Source: Bacillus nitratireducens
GTDB taxonomy: Bacteria > Bacillota > Bacilli > Bacillales > Bacillaceae_G
Direction: 5' to 3'
Length of the DNA stretch: 64,000 nt
Assembly: GCF_001884135.1 (NCBI RefSeq)
Contig: NZ_MAOC01000091.1
Coordinates: forward strand, 415,360-479,359
A program made the position numbers and the translations under genes. Within the stretch, counting starts at the first letter, position 1. Every line of letters begins with the position of its first letter. Below, piece after piece: positions 3,749-57,030 of this stretch. The notes under the pieces are model-generated. The model ran no database searches and was not told the origin of the DNA. It saw only the letters and a list, made by a program, of their open reading frames with translations.

Positions 3749-5227
3749 TTATTTCGTTTCCTCTTCCAGCACTGCTTCCATCTCATTAAATTCACGATGA
3801 ATTGCTTTAACTGGTTCTTTCGTTAATAAACTCACCACAATAACAGCTAATAAGCTACAGAAGAATCCAGGTACCATTTCATACATAGTCGCTTTTAAAC
3901 TTGGAATTTGTACCCAAGTAATAACAACTACCGCACCTACAATCATCCCTGTAAGAACGCCCCATTTGTTCGTTCTCTTCCAATATAAACTTAATAAAAT
4001 GGCGGGTCCGAATGCTGAACCAAATCCTGCCCAAGCATATCCAACAAGTGTTAAAATTGTATCACTTGGATGATACGCTAAAACAACTGCAATCATAGCT
4101 ACTATTAATACTGACAAGCGACCAATAAATACAAGTTCTTTGTCACTTGCGTTACGACGGAAGAATGTTTTATAGAAATCTTCCGTTACTGCACTTGAAA
4201 TAACAAGTAATTGCGAGGAAATACTACTCATAATCGAAGCCAAAATAGCTGATAATAAAAATCCAGTAATGTACGGATGGAATAAAATATTTGAGAATGT
4301 TACAAAGACCATTTCTGGGTCTTGTAATGTCGTATTATTTTTAGCGTAATAAGCAATACCAACTAGACCAGTAAGCATTGCACCTATAATTGAAATCGTC
4401 ATCCAACCGATACCGATTCTACGAGAAGTTTTTAAATCTTTAATAGAGGTAATTGCCATAAAGCGAACAATAATATGCGGTTGACCAAAATACCCGAGAC
4501 CCCATGCTAAAAATGAAATAATCCCAAGAATTGTAGTCCCTTTAAACATATCTAAATGCGATGCATCAACTTGCTTAATTGTATTGAATGTTTCTGTTAC
4601 ACCGCCCACATCTGTAAAAGCTACAATTGGAACTAATACAAGTGCAATAAACATAATACAGCCTTGCACAAAGTCGGTCCAACTTACTGCTAAAAAGCCA
4701 CCGAATAGTGTATAAGCAACAACGACACCCACAGTTACAAATAAACCAATTTTATAATCAAGGTTGAAAGAATTTTCAAACAAACGTCCACCTGAAACTA
4801 AACCAGCCGACGCATAAAATGTGAAAAATACTAAAATGACGATAGCGGAAACAAAACGAAGTATTTTCGTACGATCTTTAAACCGATTTTCTAAAAAATC
4901 CGGAATCGTAATTGAATCATTTGCCACTTCTGTATACGTTCGCAAACGCGGGGCAAGAATTAAATAGTTTGCATACGCACCTATTAATAAACCTATCGCA
5001 ATCCATACACTTGATAATCCTGTTGCATACATCGCACCAGGTAATCCCATTAGCATCCAACCACTCATGTCAGAAGCACCCGCTGATAAAGCTGTAACTG
5101 CTGGACCGAGTCCCCTTCCGCCTAACATATAATCTGATAAATCGGATGTCTTCTTATAAGACCAATAACCGATATACAACATACCTGCCATATAAATAGC
5201 AAGCGAAACCATAATCTCTATCTTCAC
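3749..5227 (-). CDS. putP: Sodium/proline symporter
   Basis: Solute:sodium symporter (SSS family) of about 492 residues with roughly 13 membrane segments. Conserved features include GGRGLGPAVTALSAGASDMSGWMLMGLPG near the start and the SSISSQLLVISSA stretch in the middle. It imports proline with Na+ for nutrition or osmoprotection (PutP/OpuE type). The frame can open at TTG 5230 or GTG 5227; GTG has the better spacing from GGGAG. No putA/putB catabolic genes adjoin it, so the physiological role is open. Confidence 0.9.
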   Translation of the reverse strand: MKIEIMVSLAIYMAGMLYIGYWSYKKTSDLSDYMLGGRGLGPAVTALSAGASDMSGWMLMGLPGAMYATGLSSVWIAIGLLIGAYANYLILAPRLRTYTEVANDSITIPDFLENRFKDRTKILRFVSAIVILVFFTFYASAGLVSGGRLFENSFNLDYKIGLFVTVGVVVAYTLFGGFLAVSWTDFVQGCIMFIALVLVPIVAFTDVGGVTETFNTIKQVDASHLDMFKGTTILGIISFLAWGLGYFGQPHIIVRFMAITSIKDLKTSRRIGIGWMTISIIGAMLTGLVGIAYYAKNNTTLQDPEMVFVTFSNILFHPYITGFLLSAILASIMSSISSQLLVISSAVTEDFYKTFFRRNASDKELVFIGRLSVLIVAMIAVVLAYHPSDTILTLVGYAWAGFGSAFGPAILLSLYWKRTNKWGVLTGMIVGAVVVITWVQIPSLKATMYEMVPGFFCSLLAVIVVSLLTKEPVKAIHREFNEMEAVLEEETK

Positions 5228-5501
5228 CAAATCTCTCCCTTAGTTACATAAGCCATTCAAAATTTCGAAAAATGACTTTTTCTATTTTCTTGTTTTCGCT
5301 TATGGTTCCCTACCTTAACAAACATTTTTTGTTCTTTCAAGTGAACAAGCCCTTTTCACTATATGTAAAAACCTTTATAAACGCCTTTATCCCAGTGGAT
5401 TACCCGGGTTTTCAAAGAAATTAAAGTAAAAATATTCAGATAATAAAACACCGTTTTTTCACACCTTATTTCCATTCATTTATCCGACAAATTTTAAAAG
5501 A

Positions 5502-5529
5502 AAAAAGCCATACAAATGTATGACTTTTT
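5502..5529 (-). terminator. Terminator of the yerD-like gene
   Basis: Hairpin AAAAAG-C-CATAC / GTATG-A-CTTTTT with a T tract on the minus strand, 18 bases past the stop codon. Confidence 0.75.
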
Positions 5530-5546
5530 CATCTATTAAACATAGC

Positions 5547-7121
5547 TTATCTTCGATTTACTATAGGAAACAATTCCGAAAGAGGTACTACTCTCCCCAC
5601 CTCATCTTTAAATACAATATGCTCCCTCGTTAAGTGGCGTGGGCTCTTTACCCCTGCTGCTGCCGCTAATGAAAACAAACTATATCTCATACTAATAACA
5701 TAGTTCATTACTCGCCATTTTTTCTCATATGGATCTAATGCTTTTTGGTAGTGTGGATTCGTGGTTGCAACCCCTGATGGGCATTGCCCTGAATTACATT
5801 GAAGCGCCATAATACAACCGCTTGCCATCATAAATCCACGTGCTGAATTTACGGCATCTGCACCGATAGCTAAAGCAATCGCCACTTTATCTGGTGTGAT
5901 TAATTTCCCAGAGGCAAACACCTTTAATTTATCCCGGACACCAAAATGATTTGCTGTATCAATAAATGTAAGTAATGCCGGTATAAGCGGAAGCCCCATA
6001 CTATCTGCCATCGATTTATACGTAGCACCCGATCCACCTTCTGAACCATCAATTGTAATAAAATCTGGATAAATATTTAATTCACTCATTGTTTTTAATA
6101 AATCTTCCAGAGGCTTCTGCTGTCCAATTACGATTTTCATCCCGACTGGCTTACCACCGTTTTCTTGCAACTTTTGAATAAAATACAGTGTATCCGCTGC
6201 ATTTTTTAAAAATGAAAATCGATTCGGTGAATTAATCGTCTCCCCTTCTCGTACGTTCCGAACAGAAGCAATTTTCTCATTTACTTTTTGTCCCTCTAGA
6301 TGGCCACCACGTATTTTAGCACCTTGCCCAAATTTTAACTCGAACGCCTTAATATTACTTTCTTTCGCTTTATCCATAAATTTCTCCATTGAAAAATTCC
6401 CGTCTTCATCACGGTATCCGAATAACCCTGGACCAATTTGTGCAACGATATTCGCACCTGTATGTAAATGTTCTGGAATTACACCCCCTTCTCCAGTATT
6501 AATCCACGATCCACCTGCCATTTTCGCACCAAAACCGCTCGCTAAAATATAATTCTCTCCAATCGCACCGTATGATGTCGCTGATGCTCCAAACATTCCA
6601 TGTAGCTTCCATGGGTATTTACGATTTTCACCAACTATAATTGCATCGTTATCTTCATATAACCAAAGATTTGTTGTATCCGCTGTCAATTTCTCTCTTC
6701 TTGAAAATAATCCTTCTTTATGAATTACATACTTTTTCCCCTCACTTTCTTTCGTGAGATTTACGCTTAATTCATCTGTTAAAATCGGAAACAATGTATT
6801 AGCAATATAATAGCCAGATGCATCAAAATCTCGTTTCGATCCAAAACCAAGTATTTCAGAACGATATTTCGCTAAGAACATAACACTTTGAAAATCGTAA
6901 CGTGAAAAAGGTTTTCCATCCGTGTCATGATCAAACCAGTATTGCCGGAATTCCGGTCCTATCTTTTCAAGTAAATAGCGCATTCTTCCTAAGTATGGAT
7001 GCAGTTTTAATATAGAATGGTGCGTCCGTTTTTTTATAAAAAATGTAATAATAAAAAAAACAATTAAAAGTAACATCAAAAAGAGCAATATACTAATAAT
7101 AACGAGTAGAGTTTCACTCAT
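5547..7121 (-). CDS. FMN-binding glutamate synthase-like protein (YerD family)
   Basis: Stand-alone Glu_synthase (GltB central/FMN) domain protein of 524 residues with one N-terminal membrane helix (about residues 5-28, followed by KKR). The FMN barrel is shown by the DFITIDGSEGGSGATYKS segment, and a Cys cluster CIMALQCNSGQCPSGVATT resembles the Fe-S loop of GltB. It lacks the glutaminase domain, so it is not a complete glutamate synthase; its reaction is unproven. GGGGAAG precedes the ATG. It resembles B. subtilis YerD in length and layout. Confidence 0.85.
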   Translation of the reverse strand: MSETLLVIISILLFLMLLLIVFFIITFFIKKRTHHSILKLHPYLGRMRYLLEKIGPEFRQYWFDHDTDGKPFSRYDFQSVMFLAKYRSEILGFGSKRDFDASGYYIANTLFPILTDELSVNLTKESEGKKYVIHKEGLFSRREKLTADTTNLWLYEDNDAIIVGENRKYPWKLHGMFGASATSYGAIGENYILASGFGAKMAGGSWINTGEGGVIPEHLHTGANIVAQIGPGLFGYRDEDGNFSMEKFMDKAKESNIKAFELKFGQGAKIRGGHLEGQKVNEKIASVRNVREGETINSPNRFSFLKNAADTLYFIQKLQENGGKPVGMKIVIGQQKPLEDLLKTMSELNIYPDFITIDGSEGGSGATYKSMADSMGLPLIPALLTFIDTANHFGVRDKLKVFASGKLITPDKVAIALAIGADAVNSARGFMMASGCIMALQCNSGQCPSGVATTNPHYQKALDPYEKKWRVMNYVISMRYSLFSLAAAAGVKSPRHLTREHIVFKDEVGRVVPLSELFPIVNRR

Positions 7122-7150
7122 CCCGCTTCCCCCTATGAAATTCCATAATA

Positions 7151-7180
7151 AAAGGAGAACACCTCAAGTGTTCTCCTTTT
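7151..7180 (-). terminator. Terminator of the OYE gene
   Basis: Perfect 12-bp stem (AAAGGAGAACAC / GTGTTCTCCTTT) with a 5-base loop directly downstream of the reductase stop. Confidence 0.85.
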
Positions 7181-7188
7181 ATCCTTAT

Positions 7189-8316
7189 TCAGATTAACGT
7201 AGCAAGATGCTCTTTCGCATCATATTCAACTAAACTTTCAGCATTTTTAATTCGATGAACAAAATCCGGATTAGCGATTAATGGTCTTCCAAATGCCGCT
7301 ACATCAATTGTTCCTTCTTGCAGTGCTTCTTCTGCCTCTTTCGGATTCAAATTACCTACTCCTACGATAGTACTATCCCAATACTTTCTTACTAATTGAT
7401 GAAAATTCTTACCGTCAGCAATAACTTGCGTATAATTCATCGTTGAAGGGTGAATCATCGTTAATCCAACTTCTTTAAACATATTTACAAACGTTTCAAT
7501 TGCAAGTTCAGGATGTTCCCACATATAAGTAGGATTATCACCTTTAAAGGCAGAGAAGCGAAGAAGCGTTTTATCAGCTCCAACTGCTTCAATTACAGCC
7601 TGAACAACTTCTTTCATAAACGTTAACCTTTGTTTTAAGTCACCGCCGTATTTATCAGTACGCTTATTCGCAAATTCATAAGTAAATTGATCTATTAAAT
7701 AGCCGTGTGCACCATGAATTTCTACTCCATCAAACCCAGCTTCGATTGCGTTTTTTGCAGCTTGTGCATATTGACCGACAACTTCTTTTATTTCTTCTAT
7801 TGTCATTGTTTCTGGTGTATCAAATGGTTTACGAAAACGCGGAACATTCCCCTCCGCAGCAATAGCAGAAGGTGCTTGCGGCATTTGACCACCAATTATT
7901 TCGTGATGACTCATACGTCCAACATGCCATATTTGAGCAATAATCGTTCCGCCTTCTTTATGTACTGCCTCTGTAACAGGTTTCCAAGAATCGACTTGCG
8001 CTTGTGTATAAATACCTGGTACTCCTGGATTCCCTTTTGCTCTCTGACTAATGACAATTCCTTCTGTAATAATTAGTCCAATCCCATCAGCAGCACGTTT
8101 TCGGTAATATTCGACTACGTCAGCACCAACGACTCCAGTCTCATTATTTGCAAAACATCTCGTCATCGGTGCCATCGCTATGCGATTACGAAGAGACCAA
8201 GATCCAATTTGAATCGGATGAAATAACTTCGTTTCTTCAATATTTTCAAAAGACCCCCAAGCGTTTATATTTGTTCCTTCATAAATACTTGCCGCTTTAT
8301 TATTTGAACTTGTCAT
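7189..8316 (-). CDS. Old-yellow-enzyme family NADH:flavin oxidoreductase / alkene reductase
   Basis: FMN-dependent ene-reductase of 375 residues, TIM-barrel fold. Visible landmarks are NRIAMAPMTRC (FMN site), AQIWHVGRMSH, the substrate-binding GVEIHGAHGYLIDQF motif, and the C-terminal AFGRPLIANPDF. About 30 residues precede the canonical start of the domain. GGGGGAAG lies just before the ATG. It reduces activated double bonds such as quinones, enones or nitro compounds in vitro; the in vivo substrate is unknown. The nearby mhq operon is also electrophile-related, but the two are separated by other genes. Confidence 0.88.
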   Translation of the reverse strand: MTSSNNKAASIYEGTNINAWGSFENIEETKLFHPIQIGSWSLRNRIAMAPMTRCFANNETGVVGADVVEYYRKRAADGIGLIITEGIVISQRAKGNPGVPGIYTQAQVDSWKPVTEAVHKEGGTIIAQIWHVGRMSHHEIIGGQMPQAPSAIAAEGNVPRFRKPFDTPETMTIEEIKEVVGQYAQAAKNAIEAGFDGVEIHGAHGYLIDQFTYEFANKRTDKYGGDLKQRLTFMKEVVQAVIEAVGADKTLLRFSAFKGDNPTYMWEHPELAIETFVNMFKEVGLTMIHPSTMNYTQVIADGKNFHQLVRKYWDSTIVGVGNLNPKEAEEALQEGTIDVAAFGRPLIANPDFVHRIKNAESLVEYDAKEHLATLI

Positions 8317-46476: not shown

Positions 46477-46798
46477 CCCATTCCACCCCTTCAATAATTT
46501 CTTGAACACCTTTAGCAAAATCACGCCACTCTGTTACTAATAACGTAAGTTGCATCTCTCCTTGCTCTGTTAGTTGATAATATTTACGGGGCGGTCCTTC
46601 CGTGGATTCTTTTAAATATGTTTGAAAATATTCCTCTTTCGTTAAACGACGTAATAGCGGATATACAGAACCTTCCGATATTAAAAATTTATTTGAAATT
46701 TGCTGAACAAGTTCATAACCATAACAATCCTTACGTTTTACAAGCGCCAATACACACAGTTCTAACACACCTTTTTTAAATTGAACGTTCAAGGACAA
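46469..46798 (-). CDS. PadR family transcriptional regulator
   Basis: Winged-helix repressor of 109 residues: [28 protein letters not shown] then [18 protein letters not shown], the PadR core. It is first in the operon and probably represses it; two matching inverted repeats flank the predicted promoter. The inducer is unknown. Confidence 0.9.
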
Positions 46799-46814
46799 TC
46801 CCCCTTTCTTATTT

Positions 46815-46886
46815 CAGTACTGTTCAATACACGGTACCTGTTTTATCCATAATATACCACTTAGTACTGTTTATTGCAAGGTACTA
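46815..46886 (-). promoter_or_regulatory. Promoter and paired operators of the PadR operon
   Basis: Two inverted repeats share the same geometry: AGTAC ... GGTAC at 46816-46838 and AGTAC ... GGTAC at 46863-46885, both beginning AGTACTGTT. On the minus strand TTGCAA, a 17-bp spacer and TATATT lie between, so one repeat overlaps the -35 region and the other follows the -10. The repressor assignment is inferred. Confidence 0.55.
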
Positions 46887-47056
46887 TATTTTCAAACTTT
46901 AATTTATCACTAAACACATCCACAACATCAAACACTGAGCAAAACATACAATATTGAAGAAATACAATAGTATTTTAAATAATCTCCGTGATTTTTCCGA
47001 GCATCTCGCGGACAGCTATTCAATTTATTCCGCCAGCACCTATGTTGTCCGCAAAT

Positions 47057-47092
47057 AAAAAAGCCCTGATACCGTAGTATCAAGGCTTTTTT
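47057..47092 (-). terminator. Original glnA terminator, stranded by the prophage
   Basis: Perfect stem AAAAAAGCC-TGATAC / GTATCA-GGCTTTTTT directly beyond the left att copy. It now lies 8.5 kb from glnA. Confidence 0.75.
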
Positions 47093-47095
47093 ACT

Positions 47096-47145
47096 TCTTA
47101 GTATAGAGACATATATTGGTCGCGTTCCCATTGGTGAACTTGCGT
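47096..47145. repeat. attL: duplicated 3' end of glnA
   Basis: 50 bp identical, with one mismatch (47119/55669), to 55646-55695 at the true end of glnA. It still encodes the glnA C-terminus ([14 protein letters not shown] and stop) but has no gene in front. This is the left prophage boundary. Confidence 0.88.
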
Positions 47146-47252
47146 GCGGAATATATCCTCTGAATTCATCCAATTTTAAATTGCGCCAAAAACGTTGATC
47201 TATCAAGGTTTCATAAAAGTGATGTTTCATAGTGATTCATCACTTTTTTTTA

Positions 47253-47278
47253 TTTTGTGGGTGAATTGTGGGTGGGTG
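47253..47278 (+). repeat. GTGGGTG direct repeats, left arm
   Basis: TTTTGTGGGTG (47253-47263), TTGTGGGTG (47266-47274) and an overlapping GGGTG. The same unit occurs three times at the right end. Probably arm-type integrase binding sites. Confidence 0.5.
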
Positions 47279-47446
47279 AACTTCCAATAAATACATCTCT
47301 TAAATAAGCTTAGAGGGTACACTACTTTTCTTTATTTCAATATTCACCTTTAAAATACACCTCATGGCAATTATAATTAAAAAAATAATTTCTTCAATTT
47401 TTTTTAATACGTCTACATTATTTCAATTTGCATTAAAAGAATTTGG

Positions 47447-47452
47447 TATAAT
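47447..47452 (+). promoter_or_regulatory. Extended -10 promoter of the cationic peptide gene
   Basis: TGGTATAAT is a good extended -10 box 28 bases before the TTG start; no clear -35 at the normal distance. Only the sequence match supports it. Confidence 0.4.
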
Positions 47453-47479
47453 TAGCTTAATTTAAGGGAGGGGGATAGC

Positions 47480-47572
47480 TTGAAGGTTGTTCAATCTATA
47501 TTTAGAGGGTTTCGTTTATTAAGTAAAATCATAAATCCTATACTAAAGGCATTATCTAAAAGTAAATTTTAA
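47480..47572 (+). CDS. Candidate 30-residue cationic amphipathic peptide
   Basis: Starts at TTG with an exceptionally strong AAGGGAGGGGG site five bases upstream. The peptide MKVVQSIFRGFRLLSKII... is 30 residues, has seven Lys/Arg and no acidic residue, and its hydrophobic residues (4, 7, 8, 11, 14, 18, 21, 22, 25) fall on one helical face. No leader or Cys is present. It could be a leaderless bacteriocin-like or toxin-like membrane peptide, or an unrelated small protein. It lies between attL and the WXG toxin on the same strand. Not recognised. Confidence 0.5.
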   Translation: MKVVQSIFRGFRLLSKIINPILKALSKSKF

Positions 47573-47582
47573 ATATCGTAGC

Positions 47583-47612
47583 AAAAAAGCCGACTCAAGA
47601 GGGTGGGCTTTA
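47583..47612 (+). terminator. Weak terminator after the small peptide
   Basis: AAAGCC / GGCTTT stem with a 13-base loop and a short T run. Confidence 0.4.
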
Positions 47613-47733
47613 AATTTATTCATATGATTAAAATTATCCTCTTAAATGCCCCTTAATACAGTAATACGAATTTTCTATATTTACATTTTTTTCTTCTTGC
47701 CTCATAATTTTAATCGGGAGCGTGAGGAAGAAA

Positions 47734-48933
47734 ATGGTTCAAATAAAAATTACACCTGAAGAATTAGAACAAGTTGCAAAACGGGCTAATGATACTAAGC
47801 ATGCATTAGAATCCATACATAATAATTTATGCAATCAAATTGATTACATGTGTTTTCAATGGACAGGTGCATCGAATCAAAACTTCGTTCAAATGTTTAA
47901 CAATGCCAGACCATCCGTATTCACAGCTATCAATGCACTTGTGCATGTCGAAGAAGAATTAAAGAGAATTGCTGAAAAATTCCGCGTTGCAGATAGCGAA
48001 GATGTAACGACTCCAAAAGAAACTACACCTAGTAAATCACCTGAAAAATCTTTCTTAGGAAAAGTTTGGGATGGTATAGTAGACGGTACGGGAGCTGCTG
48101 TTGGAGATACAATCGACGGTATAAAAGCATTAGGTGACTGGGAAACTTGGAAAGGCATGGGCTACACTGTCACCCATTTAGATGAAGCTTTACCTGCTAT
48201 GTGGGATGCGTTATCCGACTCTTATAATAAAGATGTGATAAATGGGGATGCAGAAACACGCGCAAGATGGGGATCGTATGCTTTAACACAAATTGGATTA
48301 GGTCTTCTTGGAGATAAAGGGGTCAGTAAGGCTGCAAAGCTAGCACAAGGTGCTAAATTCTCTCAAGGCATCTCAAAAGCTGGACAATTATTTAATAAAG
48401 GCGATAATTTGGCTTTCGCAGGCGGTAATGGTGTTACATCTGCATTTGATAGTGCTACTTTTAGACAAGCCGAAGAAAAACTTTCAACCTACCAGTTTGC
48501 TCAGGGTGAAAATACTACTACTGTGAAACCTGGTGATAGTAGTTCACTTGCCCCTGGAGGGGGCCTAGCTGCACACGAGGCTAGAGGTGGACATTTAATA
48601 GAAAGACATGTAGGAAAAACAGATGAAGAACTATTGCAAAGATTAGAAAGTAATTCTACAATAACAGGTGCGTCCACCTTTGCCGATAGAGCTACGGCTG
48701 AAAAAATAGCAAATGAAGTTTTAAGCAACCCGCAAAATACGGAAAAAATAAACAGATGGTTAAATAACCCTGACAGCAAGCCAACCTTACCCTTAAGATA
48801 CCAAGGTACAGATATTACTGGTAGGCATGTTCCTAGAGGATCAGAAATTATCTCAGAAGTAAAAAATGCAAGAATTGTTTTAAAAAAAGACAGAGATGGT
48901 AGTTTTATTATTACAGGATATCCAGAAAGATAG
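47734..48933 (+). CDS. WXG100-type polymorphic toxin with C-terminal RNase A-like domain
   Basis: Protein of 399 residues from ATG 47734 (GAGGAAG upstream). Residues 1-90 form an ESAT-6/WXG100-like helical hairpin with the W-T-G turn (FQWTGASNQNF), the export module for type VII secretion. A middle linker (about 100-240) is Gly/Ala rich. Residues 280-399 match the bacterial RNase A-like toxin domain of CDI systems (GGHLIERHVGKTDEELLQRL, ASTFADRATAEKI, SFIITGYPE). His292, Arg303, Thr394 and Tyr396 sit at spacings close to those of the Yersinia CdiA RNase active site as I recall it. The next gene is its likely immunity. Confidence 0.85.
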   Translation: MVQIKITPEELEQVAKRANDTKHALESIHNNLCNQIDYMCFQWTGASNQNFVQMFNNARPSVFTAINALVHVEEELKRIAEKFRVADSEDVTTPKETTPSKSPEKSFLGKVWDGIVDGTGAAVGDTIDGIKALGDWETWKGMGYTVTHLDEALPAMWDALSDSYNKDVINGDAETRARWGSYALTQIGLGLLGDKGVSKAAKLAQGAKFSQGISKAGQLFNKGDNLAFAGGNGVTSAFDSATFRQAEEKLSTYQFAQGENTTTVKPGDSSSLAPGGGLAAHEARGGHLIERHVGKTDEELLQRLESNSTITGASTFADRATAEKIANEVLSNPQNTEKINRWLNNPDSKPTLPLRYQGTDITGRHVPRGSEIISEVKNARIVLKKDRDGSFIITGYPER

Positions 48934-48945
48934 AGGAGAGTTTAT

Positions 48946-49245
48946 ATGAAAGATAAATACATACAATATGAAGAATTAGGTGATTTTTTAGCAGGAACTT
49001 TCCATCAAGATATTGAATCAATCGAATTCGCCATAAACGAATTTATCACTGAAGTTACTAATATATGTTTAGAGAATACTATTGAAGACATTACATCATT
49101 CCTACAAAGTGGTTTAACTGTTCATGAAAAAGAAGAATTCATTAAATATAATGCCGAAATTTATTTTCCTGCTTTAAACCTTACCCCTATAGAATGGCTA
49201 GAGCAAATAGTCGAACTCTTAAAAAGAGCATTAAAAAGTAAATAG
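48946..49245 (+). CDS. CdiI-type immunity protein for the RNase A-like toxin
   Basis: Acidic helical protein of 99 residues, 12 bases after the toxin and with its own GAGGAGA site. It resembles the contact-dependent-inhibition immunity family that accompanies RNase A-like toxins (YEELGDFLAGTFHQDIES, ENTIEDI, NLTPIEWLEQIVELL). It should bind and block the toxin nuclease in the producing cell. A terminator follows. Confidence 0.75.
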   Translation: MKDKYIQYEELGDFLAGTFHQDIESIEFAINEFITEVTNICLENTIEDITSFLQSGLTVHEKEEFIKYNAEIYFPALNLTPIEWLEQIVELLKRALKSK

Positions 49246-49259
49246 TAAGAACGGTTTTC

Positions 49260-49285
49260 GACCACCCTTTACAGGTGGTCTTTTA
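49260..49285 (+). terminator. Terminator of the toxin-immunity operon
   Basis: Stem GACCACC / GGTGGTC with T run. Confidence 0.8.
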
Positions 49286-49292
49286 CTTTTTT

Positions 49293-49365
49293 CTACTTTA
49301 CATACACAAAAGCTTCATTTGTCGTAACATAGTATATTTCCCCCTTTTCTATTGTTTACTTTATA
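49293..49365 (-). pseudogene. Fragment of a second phage amidase gene (3' end)
   Basis: Minus-strand codons give YKVNNRKG and, after a +1 shift at a run of five G, YYVTTNEAFVYVK plus stop. This matches the last 22 residues of the amidase at 49620 (YKVHNSKG, YYVTTNPAYVYAR). It is a decayed partial duplicate. Confidence 0.6.
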
Positions 49366-49619: not shown

Positions 49620-50675
49620 TCATCTCGCATACACATAGGCAGGATTAGTAGTTACATAGTATGTTTTGCCTTTACTGTTGTGTACTTTGTATTGATATGA
49701 ACCATTCACAATTACTTTTGTCTCAATAACAAACCCTAAACCTATATCTACTACTTCAGCCACATCTTTATCCTGCCAAGATGGAGATTCATAGAAACGT
49801 AAATTGTCCACTTTAGAAATAACCCTTTTACCAGTTATAGTAGAAGCATCCGTCCCATTGTAACGGATGTATGAGGAGTCATAATAAATCCATTGGTTAC
49901 CACCAAGATTTAACCAGTTCCCTAATTTACCCCATACTTTATAAGCCTCTCCTTTTTGTAATTTACGAATAACACTATTATCTGTTGATGGTCCAGAACG
50001 GAGATTTACATTGTACCCCTCAATATACGCAACACCATTCACCTCTACTGTACCAGGTACTTCATTTGGTTTTTGTGGTTTAGCATCCACTGTAACAGAG
50101 TTCCCGTTATAAGCCTTTAACACGTCTGCTCGGAATTTACCCTCTGATATACCATGACTACGAAGATAATCAAGTGGGTCTTCATGGTTTGTACCACCTA
50201 ATTTATAAGTAATATCCTTATGTGTCCATAATCCTTTAGAAGGATGAATATTTCGTTCCCGTAAGATTTCCCCTATCAACTCTACATATCGTTCGTAAGA
50301 ACGTTTGAACTTCATCGGATCACTTGTTTCACACAGTTCGACATGAACAAATCTAGCATTCGCTGCTGAGCCTGCACCCCATGCACGATATTTAGTAGAT
50401 GCAATTTGAATTTTTTCATCCCAATCAACTGCGTAGTGAACAAATGCTGAACGCCATGTGCGAGACTCATATTTTTGAATATTAATAGCTGGAGCTTCTG
50501 GGGTAGCTGTAGAATGTGCTACAACACCTTCATAAGCGCCAACACCATTACGGTATGGTTGTTTTGGTAAATCAGGAATAATCAAAACCCTATCAGCAAA
50601 TACGTTTGTTCCAATTGATAATACTAAAATCATAGCAACAACTATAGCTGAAATATGTTTCCACTTCTTTTTCAT
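49620..50675 (-). CDS. Prophage N-acetylmuramoyl-L-alanine amidase (endolysin) with SH3 domain
   Basis: Protein of 351 residues. Residues 1-27 form a signal peptide or signal anchor (MKKKWKHISAIVVAMILVLS). The amidase_2 domain spans about 35-190 with zinc-binding His in EGVVAHSTATPEA, the FVHVELCE strand and WTHKDITYKLGGTNHEDP. One bacterial SH3 domain follows (about 215-275), then a C-terminal wall-binding-like domain (about 285-351). It is the last gene of the XhlA-holin-amidase lysis cassette and appears intact. Confidence 0.88.
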   Translation of the reverse strand: MKKKWKHISAIVVAMILVLSIGTNVFADRVLIIPDLPKQPYRNGVGAYEGVVAHSTATPEAPAINIQKYESRTWRSAFVHYAVDWDEKIQIASTKYRAWGAGSAANARFVHVELCETSDPMKFKRSYERYVELIGEILRERNIHPSKGLWTHKDITYKLGGTNHEDPLDYLRSHGISEGKFRADVLKAYNGNSVTVDAKPQKPNEVPGTVEVNGVAYIEGYNVNLRSGPSTDNSVIRKLQKGEAYKVWGKLGNWLNLGGNQWIYYDSSYIRYNGTDASTITGKRVISKVDNLRFYESPSWQDKDVAEVVDIGLGFVIETKVIVNGSYQYKVHNSKGKTYYVTTNPAYVYAR

Positions 50676-50911
50676 TTTACATCGGCATCCTTTTTTATAA
50701 TTTTTGTGTGGTCAAATAATCCACTTGCTGACAGTCCAATAATGATTCCTTGAAATATATTTGTTTTGATATCTTGAGACAAAAATAAAACGCCTAGCAT
50801 TATGCCTAGCGTTAAATTTAGTAACGGAACATATTTTGTTTGCATCCCAACTGTTTTTGCAATTTGTGATAGTCCTACGACAACACCAATCATTACCGTA
50901 ACTTCAATCAT
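50672..50911 (-). CDS. Phage holin
   Basis: Membrane protein of 79 residues with three hydrophobic stretches and a charged C-terminus (DHTKIIKKDADVK). ATG 50911 has AAAGGGGGTGG upstream and overlaps the XhlA stop (TAATG). The frame extends to 50986 but only by reading into xhlA. It overlaps the amidase by 4 bases. It would form the lesion that releases the endolysin. Confidence 0.82.
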   Translation of the reverse strand: MIEVTVMIGVVVGLSQIAKTVGMQTKYVPLLNLTLGIMLGVLFLSQDIKTNIFQGIIIGLSASGLFDHTKIIKKDADVK

Positions 50912-51156
50912 TACATACCACCCCCTTTCAAGAAGAAGGTAAGAGCCGCTCCAATAAGTCCACCAACAATAAGGCGTAAAATCCAAGTTGTATTAGCGCT
51001 AATCTTATCTAATTGCTTATTGATATTGATAATGTCTTTCTCGTTACCTGTTGTCCGCATTTCTAAACTTTTAATCTCTAAGCGAATGTCCTTAATATCT
51101 TGCTTTATTTCTTGAACATCACTTCTCACCTCTTGCAAACCATCCATACCGTCCAC
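50911..51156 (-). CDS. Hemolysin XhlA family protein
   Basis: Protein of 81 residues: an N-terminal coiled coil (DGLQEVRSDVQEIKQDIKDI) and a C-terminal membrane helix (TWILRLIVGGLIGAALTFF), the XhlA layout. XhlA works with holin and endolysin during PBSX-type lysis. First gene of the lysis cassette. Confidence 0.85.
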   Translation of the reverse strand: MDGMDGLQEVRSDVQEIKQDIKDIRLEIKSLEMRTTGNEKDIININKQLDKISANTTWILRLIVGGLIGAALTFFLKGGGM

Positions 51157-51636: not shown

Positions 51637-52010
51637 TTATGGCTGCTCTGGTTTCCTATTTATTAGTTGTTGTAGTAACAATTCTTCTAACTTCGCAATT
51701 CTTTCTTCTTGACTAATTAACACACCTTTTAACTCATTAAGTTCAGTCTGAATGGAAACTTCCTCAAGTTTTTCTGCCTCAATTTCAGCTTTTAGGCTAG
51801 CAATTTTCTCTTGGTCAGCTAGTTGCTCTCTGCGAATTTGCTGTACTGCTCCTACAGTTATTGTAGCTAGCTTGTAAGATGGTACAGATTTTCTGTCTCT
51901 AGATGCTAATGCTTCTGGTACATCTTCTGCGATGAATCCGTACTGCTTATCGATAGCTTTAAGAGTGATAGGGTCTGTCTCTTCACCGCTGTCTGTATAG
52001 CTCAGCTACG
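51637..52010 (-). pseudogene. Tail fibre C-terminal chaperone domain, frameshifted fragment
   Basis: In a frame one base off from the fragment upstream, the minus strand reads YTDSGEETDPITLKAIDKQYGFIAEDVPEALASRD, then a Gln/Glu-rich coiled coil ending RKPEQP and stop. GFIAEDVPE is typical of the intramolecular chaperone (peptidase S74-like) domain at the end of phage tail spikes. A 1-base indel near 51998-52008 separates it from the rest. Confidence 0.7.
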
Positions 52011-53803
52011 TCTGCTTTAAGGTAATACTCTTTAGGCGTTAGCTCCATGATAGTATCTAGAGCGTTAACTTCGATGTCTTTGATATACGCCTTGATAGTT
52101 CTACTTGATGTGTTCTCGAAGTTACTAGCACGGATTTTTCCAGCCCAAAGGTTAGCCCACTCGTTACCGTTTTGCTTCTTAATCTGTAAACCGTAGTCGT
52201 AGTAAGCTGAGTCATTAGCTGAACGAATCATAAACGAGCTACCAAGAAACACATCGGTGTCAGCATTATCACGGTTCTCAGATACACGTTTGTCGACTAT
52301 TTTAAGCGTTCGGTTAGTTATTGGGAAGTACCCTCTACCGTTTTCAAACGTCCAAACTCCACCGCCTGATGCAAATGTAGTAGGACCACCAGTACCGATA
52401 ATCATTTCGTCTTTACCGTTAAGGTTCATTCTGCCCTCACGAGCGATAATTTCAATATTACCTGTTTTGCCAAACTCTATCTCAGACTTAGATACGACAC
52501 CTTTATTACTGTCGTCTCTGTTTTTAGCAATACCGATACGCGCTGATGCATCAGCCCATATGTTGTTCGTAGGTGCCTGATGCTCTATGAACATAGCGCC
52601 TTCTAGTGCTGCTGCGTTAGAACCGTCATAACTGTTACCTAGCACAAGAGAAGTACGGATGTATTGCTGAGTATTACCAATGTTAGGCATGAATCCAAAG
52701 TAACCACGTTGTACAGGTACTGTGTTAAGCCCTAGTCTGTGCTTAAGTGCAAAGTGTTGGGCGTTCATCTCGATAAATCCGCCTATCTGGTTCTGCTCGA
52801 GCGTACTAATCGTAGCGCCTACGAGTCGCTGTGACTGAATACTCTTAGCTGTAACAGCCCCATCAAGATTAATCTTACCTGCTTGGATCAATACACTTTG
52901 AGCTGTTTGGTTAATCGCAGAAGCTATCCCGCCTGCTTCTACTTTCGAGATAATTTGATTCTTTAGAAGAGTAATAGAGCCCTCATACGTATCTACTATG
53001 GCTTTACTTCCATATCGTCCATCTGATTCAGTTTTCTTGTACACATCAGTTGCTAAGACTCTTAGGTCAATCTTGTTGTTAGCCTGTGTAATGCTTGACT
53101 CAATAGTTGAAATCTTAGCGTTATAGTCCGTTGTAGCAACTTTCTTAGCAACTTCACTTATTAGAGCGTCATAGTTAACATAGTCCTGTGGGTGCTCCAT
53201 GAAGGCGGAAGCATTAGAGCCGTACTGTAGCATTGGTTGAGCTACCCACAGAGTCCCGTTACGTCTTACCCATATATCTGCTCTTAGTACAGTAATAGCT
53301 GTAGCAGGTGCAGTAATTTTAACCTCTGCATACACCCATTTGTTATTGACTAATTTAGGTGCTAGCTCTGTTTGCATTGTAGTTGATCCCGTTGAACCAT
53401 TGAAGAATTGAAGCTTTATGACAGCTCCTTGGTCTAGCAAGGCTTTATCTTGTACATAGAACCATGCACCAAACACATAATCTCCACTGCTAATACTTGC
53501 GGGTATACTTTGAGAGATACCACAATATCTATCTGTAGTGCCTGCACCTGTAACAACGATTTTAGCGGAATTGTAGCCCTCTCGGTTTCGTGTAGCTTCT
53601 GCTGTAATAGAACCCCCTACTCCTGCAGGGATATTGCTACCCCATTTGTCAAGACTTGGCGTTCTGCTTGTTATGATCCCTGTAGTAGCGTTAATCACTT
53701 TAGTTTCAAAGGCTGTATTTCTCAATTCGTTCTCTGCACCGAGTTTACCGATATAGTCCGTCATTTCAGTAGACTTAACTCTCAGATCAATTTCGTTATT
53801 CAT
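51983..53803 (-). pseudogene. Tail fibre / minor structural protein, middle fragment
   Basis: 606 open codons, same reading frame as the 53825-54937 fragment but cut off from it by a TAG at 53825-53827. Carbohydrate-binding-like beta domains (ITAEATRNREGYNSAKIVVTG), coiled-coil linkers (NNEIDLRV repeats) and a shaft region are visible. It ends ELYRQR after a frameshift that removes the chaperone domain. Host recognition part of a Siphovirus tail; not functional as it stands. Confidence 0.75.
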
Positions 53804-53824: not shown

Positions 53825-54937
53825 CTATGTAATCTGTTGTGTATGTGTCCCTACAGTAGAACTAAGAGAGGAAACTGTAGAGACAGTCCCATCAAGTGTC
53901 TGTTTTATCTCGTTAGTACGACTATTTAAGTCGTTAAATTGGTAATTACCTGAGAAGTCTACTGTAGAGCGATTCCACCCAGTAGCTACCGTTCCTAGCT
54001 CTACTTGTGGCATCCTGTAATAGATGTCCCCATTATGAAATAGTGCTAAGCGGAATCCTACTTGTATAATACCTGCTGTAGTAGGTCTGAACGTTCTAAC
54101 TATACGTGTCCAGTTCCCTGCTTGTAGGCTAGTTTGCTCTGCTGTAGTCAATGAAACATCTTGGTATTGCACCCGTGTACCTGCATTGTCAAAATACTCC
54201 ATGATATAAGCATTTTTAACCTTAAATGCTGACCAATTCGCTGAAGGTACATACATCCATACACTCCATGTGTAGTCCTTATTGCGTGCTACTGGTAACT
54301 TATTAGAGTAAAGACTGACAATACTATTCGGGTCAGTATCAGCTAAGTTTGTACGGTTAAAGCGTGCTACTGCTCCTCTCGGCTCATCTGCCCACGGATT
54401 TTGGAAGATTAAAGTAGTAGTATTGAAGCCTGACCACCCATCAGGAAATCCATTTGTAGGACGTTGTAACATATCTGAGTTGTAAACCAAGTTAGCTCCT
54501 GCAATACCTGAAGCGTCAATACTTGTCAGTTTCATAGAGTTTTCATCTGTGGTTTGCTTGACAGTATTATTCTTCTTCAGGATTTTTACTGAAGACATTC
54601 CCCAAGGCGTTGCAAGTAATCCACGCTCTAGCTTAAGCTGTCTAATCCATAGTGACTTAGTATTTGCTTCAGCCACTCTAGGAAATCTACTACGTACCAT
54701 GATTCCTTTCATATTTGCTTTTACTTTGAAAGTATGCTCTACACGTTTCCAACCTGTATTAGTGTGCGTTTTAACCTCTGCTTCAGACCAACTAGTCCCG
54801 TCATGTTGGAATATAAGCGTTTGTCCTCCTGCTACATTCTGCATTAACTCTAATGAAAGCGTAAGTGTCTCATTCGGTAAAATACCGTGTGTAGCAGTTA
54901 TCAGAGAGCCCCCGACTTGGTAAAGACATCTTATCAA
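53825..54937 (-). pseudogene. Tail fibre / minor structural protein, N-terminal remnant
   Basis: 370 open codons encoding beta-sandwich, carbohydrate-binding-like domains (for example GILPNETLTLSLELMQNVAGGQ and WSVWMYVPSANWSAF). The true N-terminus is gone: the 5' end is fused to integrase sequence on the other strand near 54910-54935. An in-frame TAG after THTQQIT ends it, while the next codons (QGSTIKQMNNEID) continue the protein. Confidence 0.75.
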
Positions 54938-55522
54938 TACAACTATATTTATTACATCTTTTTCAAGGCGCTTCTGAATACTGGTATGCGTAAAGGTGAA
55001 GCTGCTGCTTTACAATGGAAAGACATAAATTTAAAAGAACATACTATTACTATTTCTAAAACATTGGATTTTACGGCTAAAACAAAAGAAGAATTATTCG
55101 GAGATACAAAAACATTTACTTCTAAACGTACTATCATGATTCCTAAATCATTAGTTGATGAGCTACTCGAACATAAAAAGTGGCAAAATGCTAATAAGCT
55201 TGTTTTACAAGATGCATATGAACATGAATTAGATTTGGTCTTTTCAAGAGTAGATGGAAATTTCTTGCCGAAGTCAACATTGTTCAATGCATTCTCACGC
55301 ATACTTAAGAAAGCAAATTTACCTAGACTAGAAATACACTCATTACGACACACCCACGCGGTTCTTTTATTAGAGTCTGGTGCAAGTATGAAATACATTC
55401 AAGATCGACTAGGACATAAGAGTATAGAAATCACTGCTAACGTTTACTCTCATATTAGCGATAAAATTAATAAAGATTCCATTTCGGGGTTTGAAGCTTA
55501 TATGAATAACGTATTGGGGTAA
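54911..55522 (+). pseudogene. Phage tyrosine integrase, C-terminal half
   Basis: Catalytic domain of a phage integrase with all boxes: Arg in LLNTGMRKGEAAAL, HSLRHTH, LGHKS and the nucleophile Tyr in ANVYSHIS. The N-terminal arm- and core-binding domains are missing because a deletion fused this end to the tail gene. No proper start codon or ribosome binding site precedes the homologous part, although a frame opens at ATG 54887. Its end points to attR, as expected for the integrase of this element. Confidence 0.82.
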
Positions 55523-55645: not shown

Positions 55646-55695
55646 TCTTAGTATAGAGACATATATTGATCGCGTTCCCATTGGTGAACTTGCGT
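55646..55695. repeat. attR: 3' end of glnA
   Basis: Matches 47096-47145 at 49 of 50 positions. It encodes the last glnA codons and stop, so integration left glnA intact. Confidence 0.88.
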
Positions 55696-56982
55696 TCTAA
55701 AGATATCCCACTCAATCTCTTTCGCTTCGATAAAGTGCTCAAGTAAATGATCACCTAATGCACCGCATACGATTTCATTAGATTGTAAAGTAACTAACGC
55801 TTGCGCTAATGTTGCTGGTAAGTCAACGATACCTGCTTCTTCGCGCTCTTCTTTTGTCATTACGTAGATGTTACGGTCTACTGCAGCTGGTGGAGTTAAT
55901 TTGTTTTTAATTCCATCAAGACCTGCTGCTAATAATGTAGCCATTACTAAATATGGGTTTGCAGCTGGGTCAACACTACGTACTTCTACGCGTGTACTAA
56001 TACCACGAGATGCAGGGATACGTACTAATGGGCTACGGTTTTGTGCAGACCATGCTACGTAACAAGGAGCTTCGTATCCAGGTACTAAACGCTTGTAAGA
56101 GTTTACAGTTGGGTTTGCTACCGCTGTAAATGCTGGTGCGTGTTTTAAAATACCTGCGATGAAGTGACGAGCATCATCACTTAATTGTAAATCACCGTTT
56201 TGATCGAAGAATACGTTCTCACCATTTTTGAATAGCGATAAGTTACAGTGCATACCTGAACCGTTCACACCGTATAATGGTTTTGGCATAAATGTTGCGT
56301 GTAAACCGTGTTTACGAGCAATTGTTTTTACAACAAGTTTGAATGTTTGAATATCATCACATGAGCGAATTGCACTTGCATATTTAAAGTCAATTTCGTG
56401 TTGCCCTGGAGCAACCTCATGGTGAGACGCTTCAATTTCAAAGCCCATCTCTTCTAGTTCAAGTACGATATCACGACGACAGTTTTCCCCTAGATCCATC
56501 GGCGCAAGGTCGAAGTATCCACCGTTATCGTTTAATTCTAATGTTGGATTTCCTTTTTCATCTACTTTAAATAGGAAGAATTCTGGCTCTGGTCCAAGAT
56601 TGAAATCTGAGAATCCTAAAGCTTCCATTTCTTTTAACACACGTTTTAAGTTGTTACGTGGGTCTCCATCAAATGGAGTGCCATCCGCATTGTAAATGTC
56701 ACAAATTAGACGAGCAACTTTACCTTTTTCAGCTGTCCAAGGGAAAATTACCCAAGTATCTAAGTCAGGATATAAATACATATCAGATTCTTCAATACGT
56801 ACGAAACCTTCAATCGAAGATCCATCAAACATCATTTTGTTATCAAGAGCTTTCGTTAATTGTCTCACTGGAATCTCTACGTTTTTAATTACTCCTAAAA
56901 GGTCTGTAAATTGTAAACGGACATACTTTACATTCTCTTCTTCCGCCAAACGGAAAATATCTTCTTTTGTGTACCTAGCCAT
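55648..56982 (-). CDS. glnA: Glutamine synthetase type I
   Basis: Makes glutamine from glutamate, ammonia and ATP; 444 residues, the usual size of the Bacillus enzyme. Motifs: [27 protein letters not shown], the [13 protein letters not shown]-terminus, and [16 protein letters not shown] 56982 with AAGGAGG is the start; the frame opens to 57012. The prophage att site covers its last 16 codons. Cotranscribed with glnR. Confidence 0.97.
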
Positions 56983-57030
56983 TATAAATTCCTCCTTAGT
57001 CCCTCTAAACACCTTCAGAATCAGTTATCT

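Follow-up and report, generated by a model that had tools for sequence, protein, structure and literature searches.

Why should the remnant of a prophage carry two complete genes that look like an exported toxin and its antidote? The question is raised by a 64,000-nucleotide stretch of Bacillus nitratireducens DNA (contig NZ_MAOC01000091.1, positions 415,360 to 479,359; hereafter the window), in which a gene of 399 codons (ATG at 47734, stop at 48933 on the plus strand in the window's list of open reading frames [ORFs]; a GTG at 47722 would give 403) is followed, after a gap of 12 bp, by a gene for a 99-residue protein. We consider that the pair is probably a prophage-carried, antibacterial toxin-antidote cassette whose toxin is exported by means of a WXG100 head. 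A preliminary description of this DNA, whose coordinates for the two genes (47734-48933 and 48946-49245) are correct, had read it as an interbacterial RNase secreted by a type VII system and moved by a phage, and the domains, active site, gene adjacency, attachment (att) sites and EsxB-like head all support that reading.

The toxin consists of a WXG100 head, a linker and a C-terminal RNAse_A_bac domain, in that order, with Pfam matches above the curated cut-offs. The C-terminal domain, or warhead, matches PF18431 over residues 286-397 (E 2.5e-25; 90 bits versus a curated cut-off of 27), its sequence matches PDB chain 5e3e_B, the CdiA-CT of Yersinia kristensenii (E 1.7e-19), and its predicted model has the same RNase A-like fold as that chain; thus both the profile search and the structure prediction that had been suggested as checks found the RNase A-like toxins. 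The active site of the Yersinia CdiA RNase is given in a review as His175, Arg186, Thr276 and Tyr278 (PMC9086364), and counting along the 5e3e_B alignment leads to His292, Arg303, Thr394 and Tyr396 of the window toxin, which confirms the catalytic set named earlier. Among the 25 toxins chosen for alignment, H292 and R303 are invariant, and T394 and Y396 are kept in at least 90%. Judged from sequence and model, the warhead is RNase A-like with a complete active site, and activity is predicted. The dN/dS values of 0.12-0.27 indicate purifying selection (dS exceeds 1 in 4 of 6 comparisons) and speak for the family, not for the window copy.

The 99-residue protein matches CdiI_2 (PF18593; E 2.2e-16, 60.8 bits versus a curated cut-off of 26.7), and its model (pLDDT 92.7) has the fold of the Y. 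kristensenii CdiI (5e3e_A/C), which bears out its earlier assignment to a CdiI-like immunity family. The two antidotes are only about 20% identical; single-sequence and profile searches returned no sequence relative in the PDB, and the likeness is visible by fold alone. On this evidence the gene 3′ of the toxin is the matching CdiI-type antidote, and neutralisation is predicted. A CdiI-like ORF stands directly 3′ of the toxin in 18 of 19 Bacillota loci, collected by toxin patterns alone, and over 22 chosen pairs the toxin and antidote distances are correlated (Mantel r 0.81; 0 of 2000 permutations).

For the head, PF06013 (residues 3-88, E 2.9e-15) and TIGR03930 (E 9.7e-24) both exceed their curated cut-offs, and the model, of modest confidence (pLDDT blocks 43-59), has helices at 8-43 and 48-88 with a WTG turn between them. 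Together with the PF18431 match, this agrees with the WXG100 hairpin joined to an RNase A-like C-terminus that had been described. Among solved structures, EsxB chains of B. anthracis Sterne come nearest (E 4e-10 over 88 residues), and the likeness is greatest in the final stretch (LKRIAEKFR versus LKRIADKFR). Residues 83-87 read FRVAD, which we take to resemble the YxxxD/E export signal, with F for Y; F83 and D87 are kept in all 4 aligned heads. According to a 2012 review, the WXG100 protein EsxW of B. anthracis has a large C-terminal domain, its gene lies apart from the Ess cluster, and its secretion depends on EsxB; an Ess-like cluster is also present in B. cereus and B. thuringiensis, and the WXG100 proteins of B. 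anthracis could not be assigned a function (PMC3297441). In a 2024 account the species has a functional type VII secretion system (T7SS) that secretes EsxB and is now classed as T7SSc, a divergent class (PMC11217815). By analogy, the toxin would use the EsxB/EsxW route, whatever drives it, and it is from these papers that we suppose a T7SS in the window's host.

The cassette would work as follows. The WXG100 head would pair with an EsxB-like protein of the host, and the toxin would leave by the host's type VII route and enter neighbouring Bacillus cells, inside which the warhead would cut RNA; in siblings, the antidote would block the active site, as in the Y. kristensenii complex. The lysogen would gain a weapon against non-lysogens, and the phage would thereby be favoured. 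Several results weigh against this account. None of 50,697 phage records holds a full-length relative of the toxin; no antidote was seen at 1 of the 19 Bacillota loci (L008) or, by blastp at E 1e-4, at any of the 5 alphaproteobacterial loci (L020-L024); and shared ancestry partly explains the Mantel correlation. F stands in the head where YxxxD has Y, and the full toxin model has a pLDDT of 53 overall, with a poorly resolved linker and hairpin blocks of 43-59. Moreover, EsxB is reported to be independent of the Ess-cluster ATPase (PMC3297441), which counts against a simple picture of ATPase-dependent export.

The prophage itself is delimited by two 63-nt direct repeats (Table 1). Since the right-hand repeat forms the 3′ end of glnA (55648-57012, minus strand), the prophage entered at the end of that gene. 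From its gene content and its relatives, we place the host in the B. cereus group. The 25-nt att core has just 2 sites in the window at up to 3 mismatches and none in 100 shuffles, and viral contigs with host flanks (L086 and L092) show the same glnA neighbourhood at 89-90% nucleotide identity. Between the repeats lies a remnant of 8.6 kb with a lysin, a holin, XhlA, tail pieces and what is left of an integrase.

Table 1. The cassette and the surrounding prophage remnant, in window coordinates (aa, amino acids; nt, nucleotides; L numbers denote compared contigs)
Feature	Position	Strand	Evidence
attL, copy of glnA 3′ end	47096..47158	-	63-nt direct repeat, 92% to 55646-55708
30-aa ORF, TTG start, slot anchor	47480..47572	+	identical in L074, one substitution in L075-L078
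Toxin upstream region	47653..47733	+	common to L025, L026 and L039; 78-79% nt, runs unbroken into head
Toxin gene, 399 aa	47734..48933	+	ORF list and domain matches
WXG100 export head, residues 1-91	47734..48006	+	profile matches, head alignment, model, EsxB relatives
Toxin linker, residues 105-270	48046..48543	+	46-50% aa to L025, L026, L074 and L088; low model confidence
RNase A-like domain, residues 285-399	48586..48930	+	PF18431 match, 5e3e_B likeness
Antidote (CdiI_2), 99 aa	48946..49245	+	PF18593; model pLDDT 92.7; fold of 5e3e_A/C
Terminator-like hairpin 3′ of antidote	49260..49280	+	consensus match
Probable scar, second lysin 3′ end remnant, 72 nt	49294..49365	-	82% to L101 lysin 3′ end
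Lysin (Amidase_2 and SH3), intact, convergent with toxin, other slot anchor	49620..50675	-	Pfam/PHROG and relatives
Holin	50672..50986	-	phrog_1299; Pfam matches below cut-off
XhlA	50911..51156	-	PF10779
Tail protein piece	51983..53803	-	40% to residues 828-1432 of 1540-aa L025 protein; phrog_1775 922-1496
Second tail protein piece	53825..54937	-	phrog_1775 774-874 and other tail/minor-head PHROGs
Integrase remnant, C-terminal part only	54887..55522	+	PF00589; 95.7% to L090 integrase
attR within host glnA 3′ end	55646..55708	-	63-nt direct repeat; reverse complement reads as glnA end

The claim that the pair is intact while the phage genes around it are broken stands in part. Both ORFs of the pair are complete, the integrase is cut (it aligns to residues 172-381 of the 381-aa L090 integrase), and the tail gene appears cut and split; at E 1e-5 its second piece matches the tail proteins of neither L025 nor L074. 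The lysin, however, is full length (351 aa versus 348 in L074, 354 in L090 and 351 in L101), and the holin, at 104 aa, equals that of L101 in length. The lysin remnant behind the antidote, of which 49301-49365 is 75% identical to the 3′ end of the window's own lysin, is probably a recombination scar. Elsewhere, lysin C-terminal fragments in L085 (5875-6288) and L088 (3421-3834) adjoin the glnA att site and look like leftovers of a previous prophage there. That the window copy is itself a decaying relic without present function is unlikely, even though the 8.6 kb that remain compare with contigs of about 43-64 kb for related prophages, the integrase and tail genes are broken, and promoter-like sites are no commoner than in shuffles (12 versus 9.2, sd 3.3): both reading frames are complete, the catalytic quartet is intact, and a terminator-like hairpin stands 3′ of the pair (by consensus, 6 such hairpins in the stretch versus 1.3 in shuffles). 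Since the lysis genes are also intact, the decay would be recent or partial.

Relatives of the cassette travel on other phage-like elements. Two viral contigs, L025 and L026, carry full-length toxin relatives (49-50% identity) beside lysin, holin and tail genes. They match each other over 1,988 columns at 96% (L025 161-2146). The aligned segment starts 5′ of the toxin and stops shortly after the antidote, where the lysin 3′ end lies, and this 2-kb cassette is the only blastn match between the stretches compared (the L025 contig is 11.5 kb, and 21.4 kb of the 58-kb L026 contig were used). In the same position, within the gene order Y-family polymerase, YolD, toxin, lysin and holin, a toxin is found on pN24509_1 (L039), a plasmid of B. 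paramobilis, of the B. cereus group, that has terminase, portal, capsid and tail genes; its head is 73% identical in amino acids to that of the window and, through the head, 92% in nucleotides to L026, and the two small genes 3′ of it have no Pfam or PHROG match. This L039 toxin (5001-5921) has the same WXG100 head, then PT-TG, then a C-terminus without an assigned family. A viral scan with the head alone found one locus, on the L025 contig. A scan with the antidote gave six further contigs, L074-L079: the first five have the same warhead and antidote behind an LXG head, above cut-off in all 5, with two small genes upstream, which in L074, the one scanned for them, match DUF5344 (below cut-off, among other weak matches) and DUF3958; L079 starts at the antidote.

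The glnA att motif occurs on 23 contigs, some of which may carry the host glnA end alone, and one of which, L091, has no other similarity to the window region. Two anchors are common to the window and several glnA prophages, namely a block at 47399-47591 with the 30-aa ORF (47400-47596 is 94% identical to L074 and 47399-47591 is 90% identical to L101) and the lysin end at about 49625. In L074 the interval between them holds Laps, an LXG-RNase and CdiI, and further genes separate att from its 47399-47591-type block. In L101, which is 94% identical to the window over the lysis region, the interval has a single 332-aa gene (7071-8069) that matches PDC-S61, a candidate defence model (E 1.9e-8). 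L090 has four small ORFs there, of which one matches PADLOC models weakly. Comparison of these sequences places the cassette in a cargo slot, from the 30-aa ORF to the lysin 3′ end, of glnA-integrating phages and shows that the modules of the cassette recombine. Beside the slot, the 30-aa ORF is basic, has by eye a good ribosome site and is conserved in L074-L078. The L101 gene also matches a PD-(D/E)XK-type model at E 1e-4. In 30 records, a non-random sample made up of the 23 att-motif contigs and 7 others, the RNase A domain is found in 14 (8 of them among the 23), LXG above cut-off in 11, and WXG100 above cut-off in L025 and L026 only, neither of which is among the 23.

Such a slot could also house an intracellular addiction or phage-exclusion module, its antidote lost or degraded upon infection or prophage loss, whereupon the RNase stops the cell. 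The defence-like gene of the sister prophage L101 is in keeping with that, and viral defence is one possibility named by the authors who described the PEST cassettes of mycobacterial prophages (PMC10654092). An export head would be superfluous in such a module, however, and the antidote looks like a CdiI, the partner of a toxin that is exported. Moreover, a defence system known to PADLOC was rejected, as neither toxin nor antidote has a match there, and all assigned heads in the relatives are LXG or WXG100 (L041 and L046 are without an assigned head); hence we hold this alternative to be quite improbable. Although some type VII systems contribute to virulence, it is very improbable that the exported RNase targets eukaryotic cells (host tissue or protozoa) rather than bacteria, since the presence of an antidote gene at 18 of the 19 Bacillota loci is understandable for a toxin that strikes bacteria, and the relatives lie in Peribacillus, Geobacillus, Shouchella and other mostly environmental genera.

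With an exported antibacterial toxin as the preferred reading, the identities of its parts suggest how it was assembled. The window head is 71% identical to that of L026 and 20% to that of L074, whereas the antidote is 74% identical to L074 and 44% to L026; the warhead is 68% identical to both. Trees of the warhead (support 85/93) and of the antidote (96/93) both join the window to L074, and the antidote tree places L025 and L026 in another clade (split 100/100). The warhead grouping by itself is weak, given the long branch of L074, and the claim is carried by the antidote. The linker, by its sequence, is related to those of LXG toxins. The most economical interpretation is that an LXG head, together with its helpers, gave way to a WXG100 head that brought its own upstream region, or the reverse. 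L088 (5465-7102) has, in a glnA prophage, an LXG-headed RNase A toxin followed by what by eye is an L025/L026-type antidote, and another combination of head and antidote may therefore exist. We offer only tentatively, as somewhat less than an even chance, the wider proposal that in glnA prophages of the B. cereus group the slot re-addresses one RNase A-like warhead and its antidote by exchange of heads, either LXG with its own Lap-like helpers or WXG100 borrowing the host EsxB, and that long-tailed WXG100 proteins of the EsxW type are antibacterial toxins.

Partial relatives are more widely spread. In the phage records, 13 of 50,697 match the linker alone (residues 112-231; SPbeta-like phages) and 2 have a weak match to the head, at 26-31% identity (E 3e-4 and 6e-4); the window's lysis region has no near match there. 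A Stenotrophomonas phage record (MW302330.1, 54914-55790) has a holin-amidase region 75% identical to the L026 lysis module, an odd host for a Bacillus phage lysis module and perhaps contamination. Some part of the toxin is matched by 22 of 72,556 plasmid records and the head by 4; a Bacillaceae plasmid from sea water (CP045534.1, 99378-100424) has a relative of residues 2-334 at 33% identity, and by such matches WXG100-headed relatives are also on other plasmids. None of the 24 loci from a scan of genome contigs is in a B. cereus-group genome. In an order-wide search, 34 of 397 genomes have a match to part of the toxin with an E value no higher than 1e-15; as the best glnA is 82% identical among the matches listed, this draw seems to be without the B. 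cereus group. Some of its genomes, G133 (residues 2-222) and G048 (3-207) for example, match head and linker and not the warhead, so that to judge by these matches such heads, joined to different C-termini, probably occur outside phages too. The window proteins match PHROGs 25038 (toxin, E 1.7e-146; also matched by the L026 toxin along its whole length), 34091 (same head, other C-terminus, 1.3e-45) and 16822 (antidote, 4.4e-41), all labelled as of unknown function in the database.

How new is this? The warhead family is already known from contact-dependent inhibition (CDI), and the window pair resembles CdiA-CT/CdiI of Y. kristensenii (5e3e; PF18431) in warhead sequence and fold, the four catalytic residues and the antidote fold. 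Export there is by CdiB/CdiA two-partner secretion, whereas here there is a WXG100 head in a Gram-positive prophage. A two-partner CDI origin was rejected, given this head on a toxin of 399 aa and an ORF list with no CdiA-sized gene; its longest ORF, at 680 aa, is what we take to be a transketolase-like gene. A catalogue of WXG- and LXG-linked polymorphic toxins appeared in 2012 (PMC3482391). The PEST cassettes, with a WXG100-like head, variable toxin domain, immunity gene and recombining parts (PMC10654092), share with ours the prophage location, the WXG100-headed toxin and the immunity gene; they are mycobacterial, however, and have one or two separate WXG100 partner genes, while the window cassette has no partner beside it (no ORF of at least 50 aa just 5′ of the toxin on its strand, and the antidote 3′), and the word "RNase" is absent from the main text of that paper. 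LXG toxins, found on B. subtilis prophages and including SPbeta YokI (PMC8321402), are likewise T7SS toxin-antidote pairs, some of them prophage-borne, with a related linker, but the LXG head has about 200 residues and that of the window is an 88-residue WXG100 without Lap genes; an LXG toxin was rejected, with no PF04740 match and no plus-strand ORF of at least 50 aa in 46780-47721. EsxW of B. anthracis, compared by description alone, has the same architecture and depends on EsxB, to which the window head is related; unlike EsxW, the window toxin has an identified warhead and antidote and a prophage location. No published description of a WXG100-headed RNase A toxin on a B. cereus-group prophage was found in titles and abstract beginnings among the matches listed. 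What is new, as far as searched, is the joining of WXG100 to RNase A, its carriage by phages in the B. cereus group, and the way in which prophage cargo exchanges heads and warheads.

The window proteins suggest a function for three PHROG families that had none, and natural pairs that share the warhead but differ in the head make it possible to ask by which route each head is exported. An EsxW-type architecture with a recognisable warhead, an antidote and a phage vehicle suggests a role for such proteins, namely antibacterial competition moved by phages. If the head-exchange reading is true, these phages would shuffle the shipping route as well as the poison.
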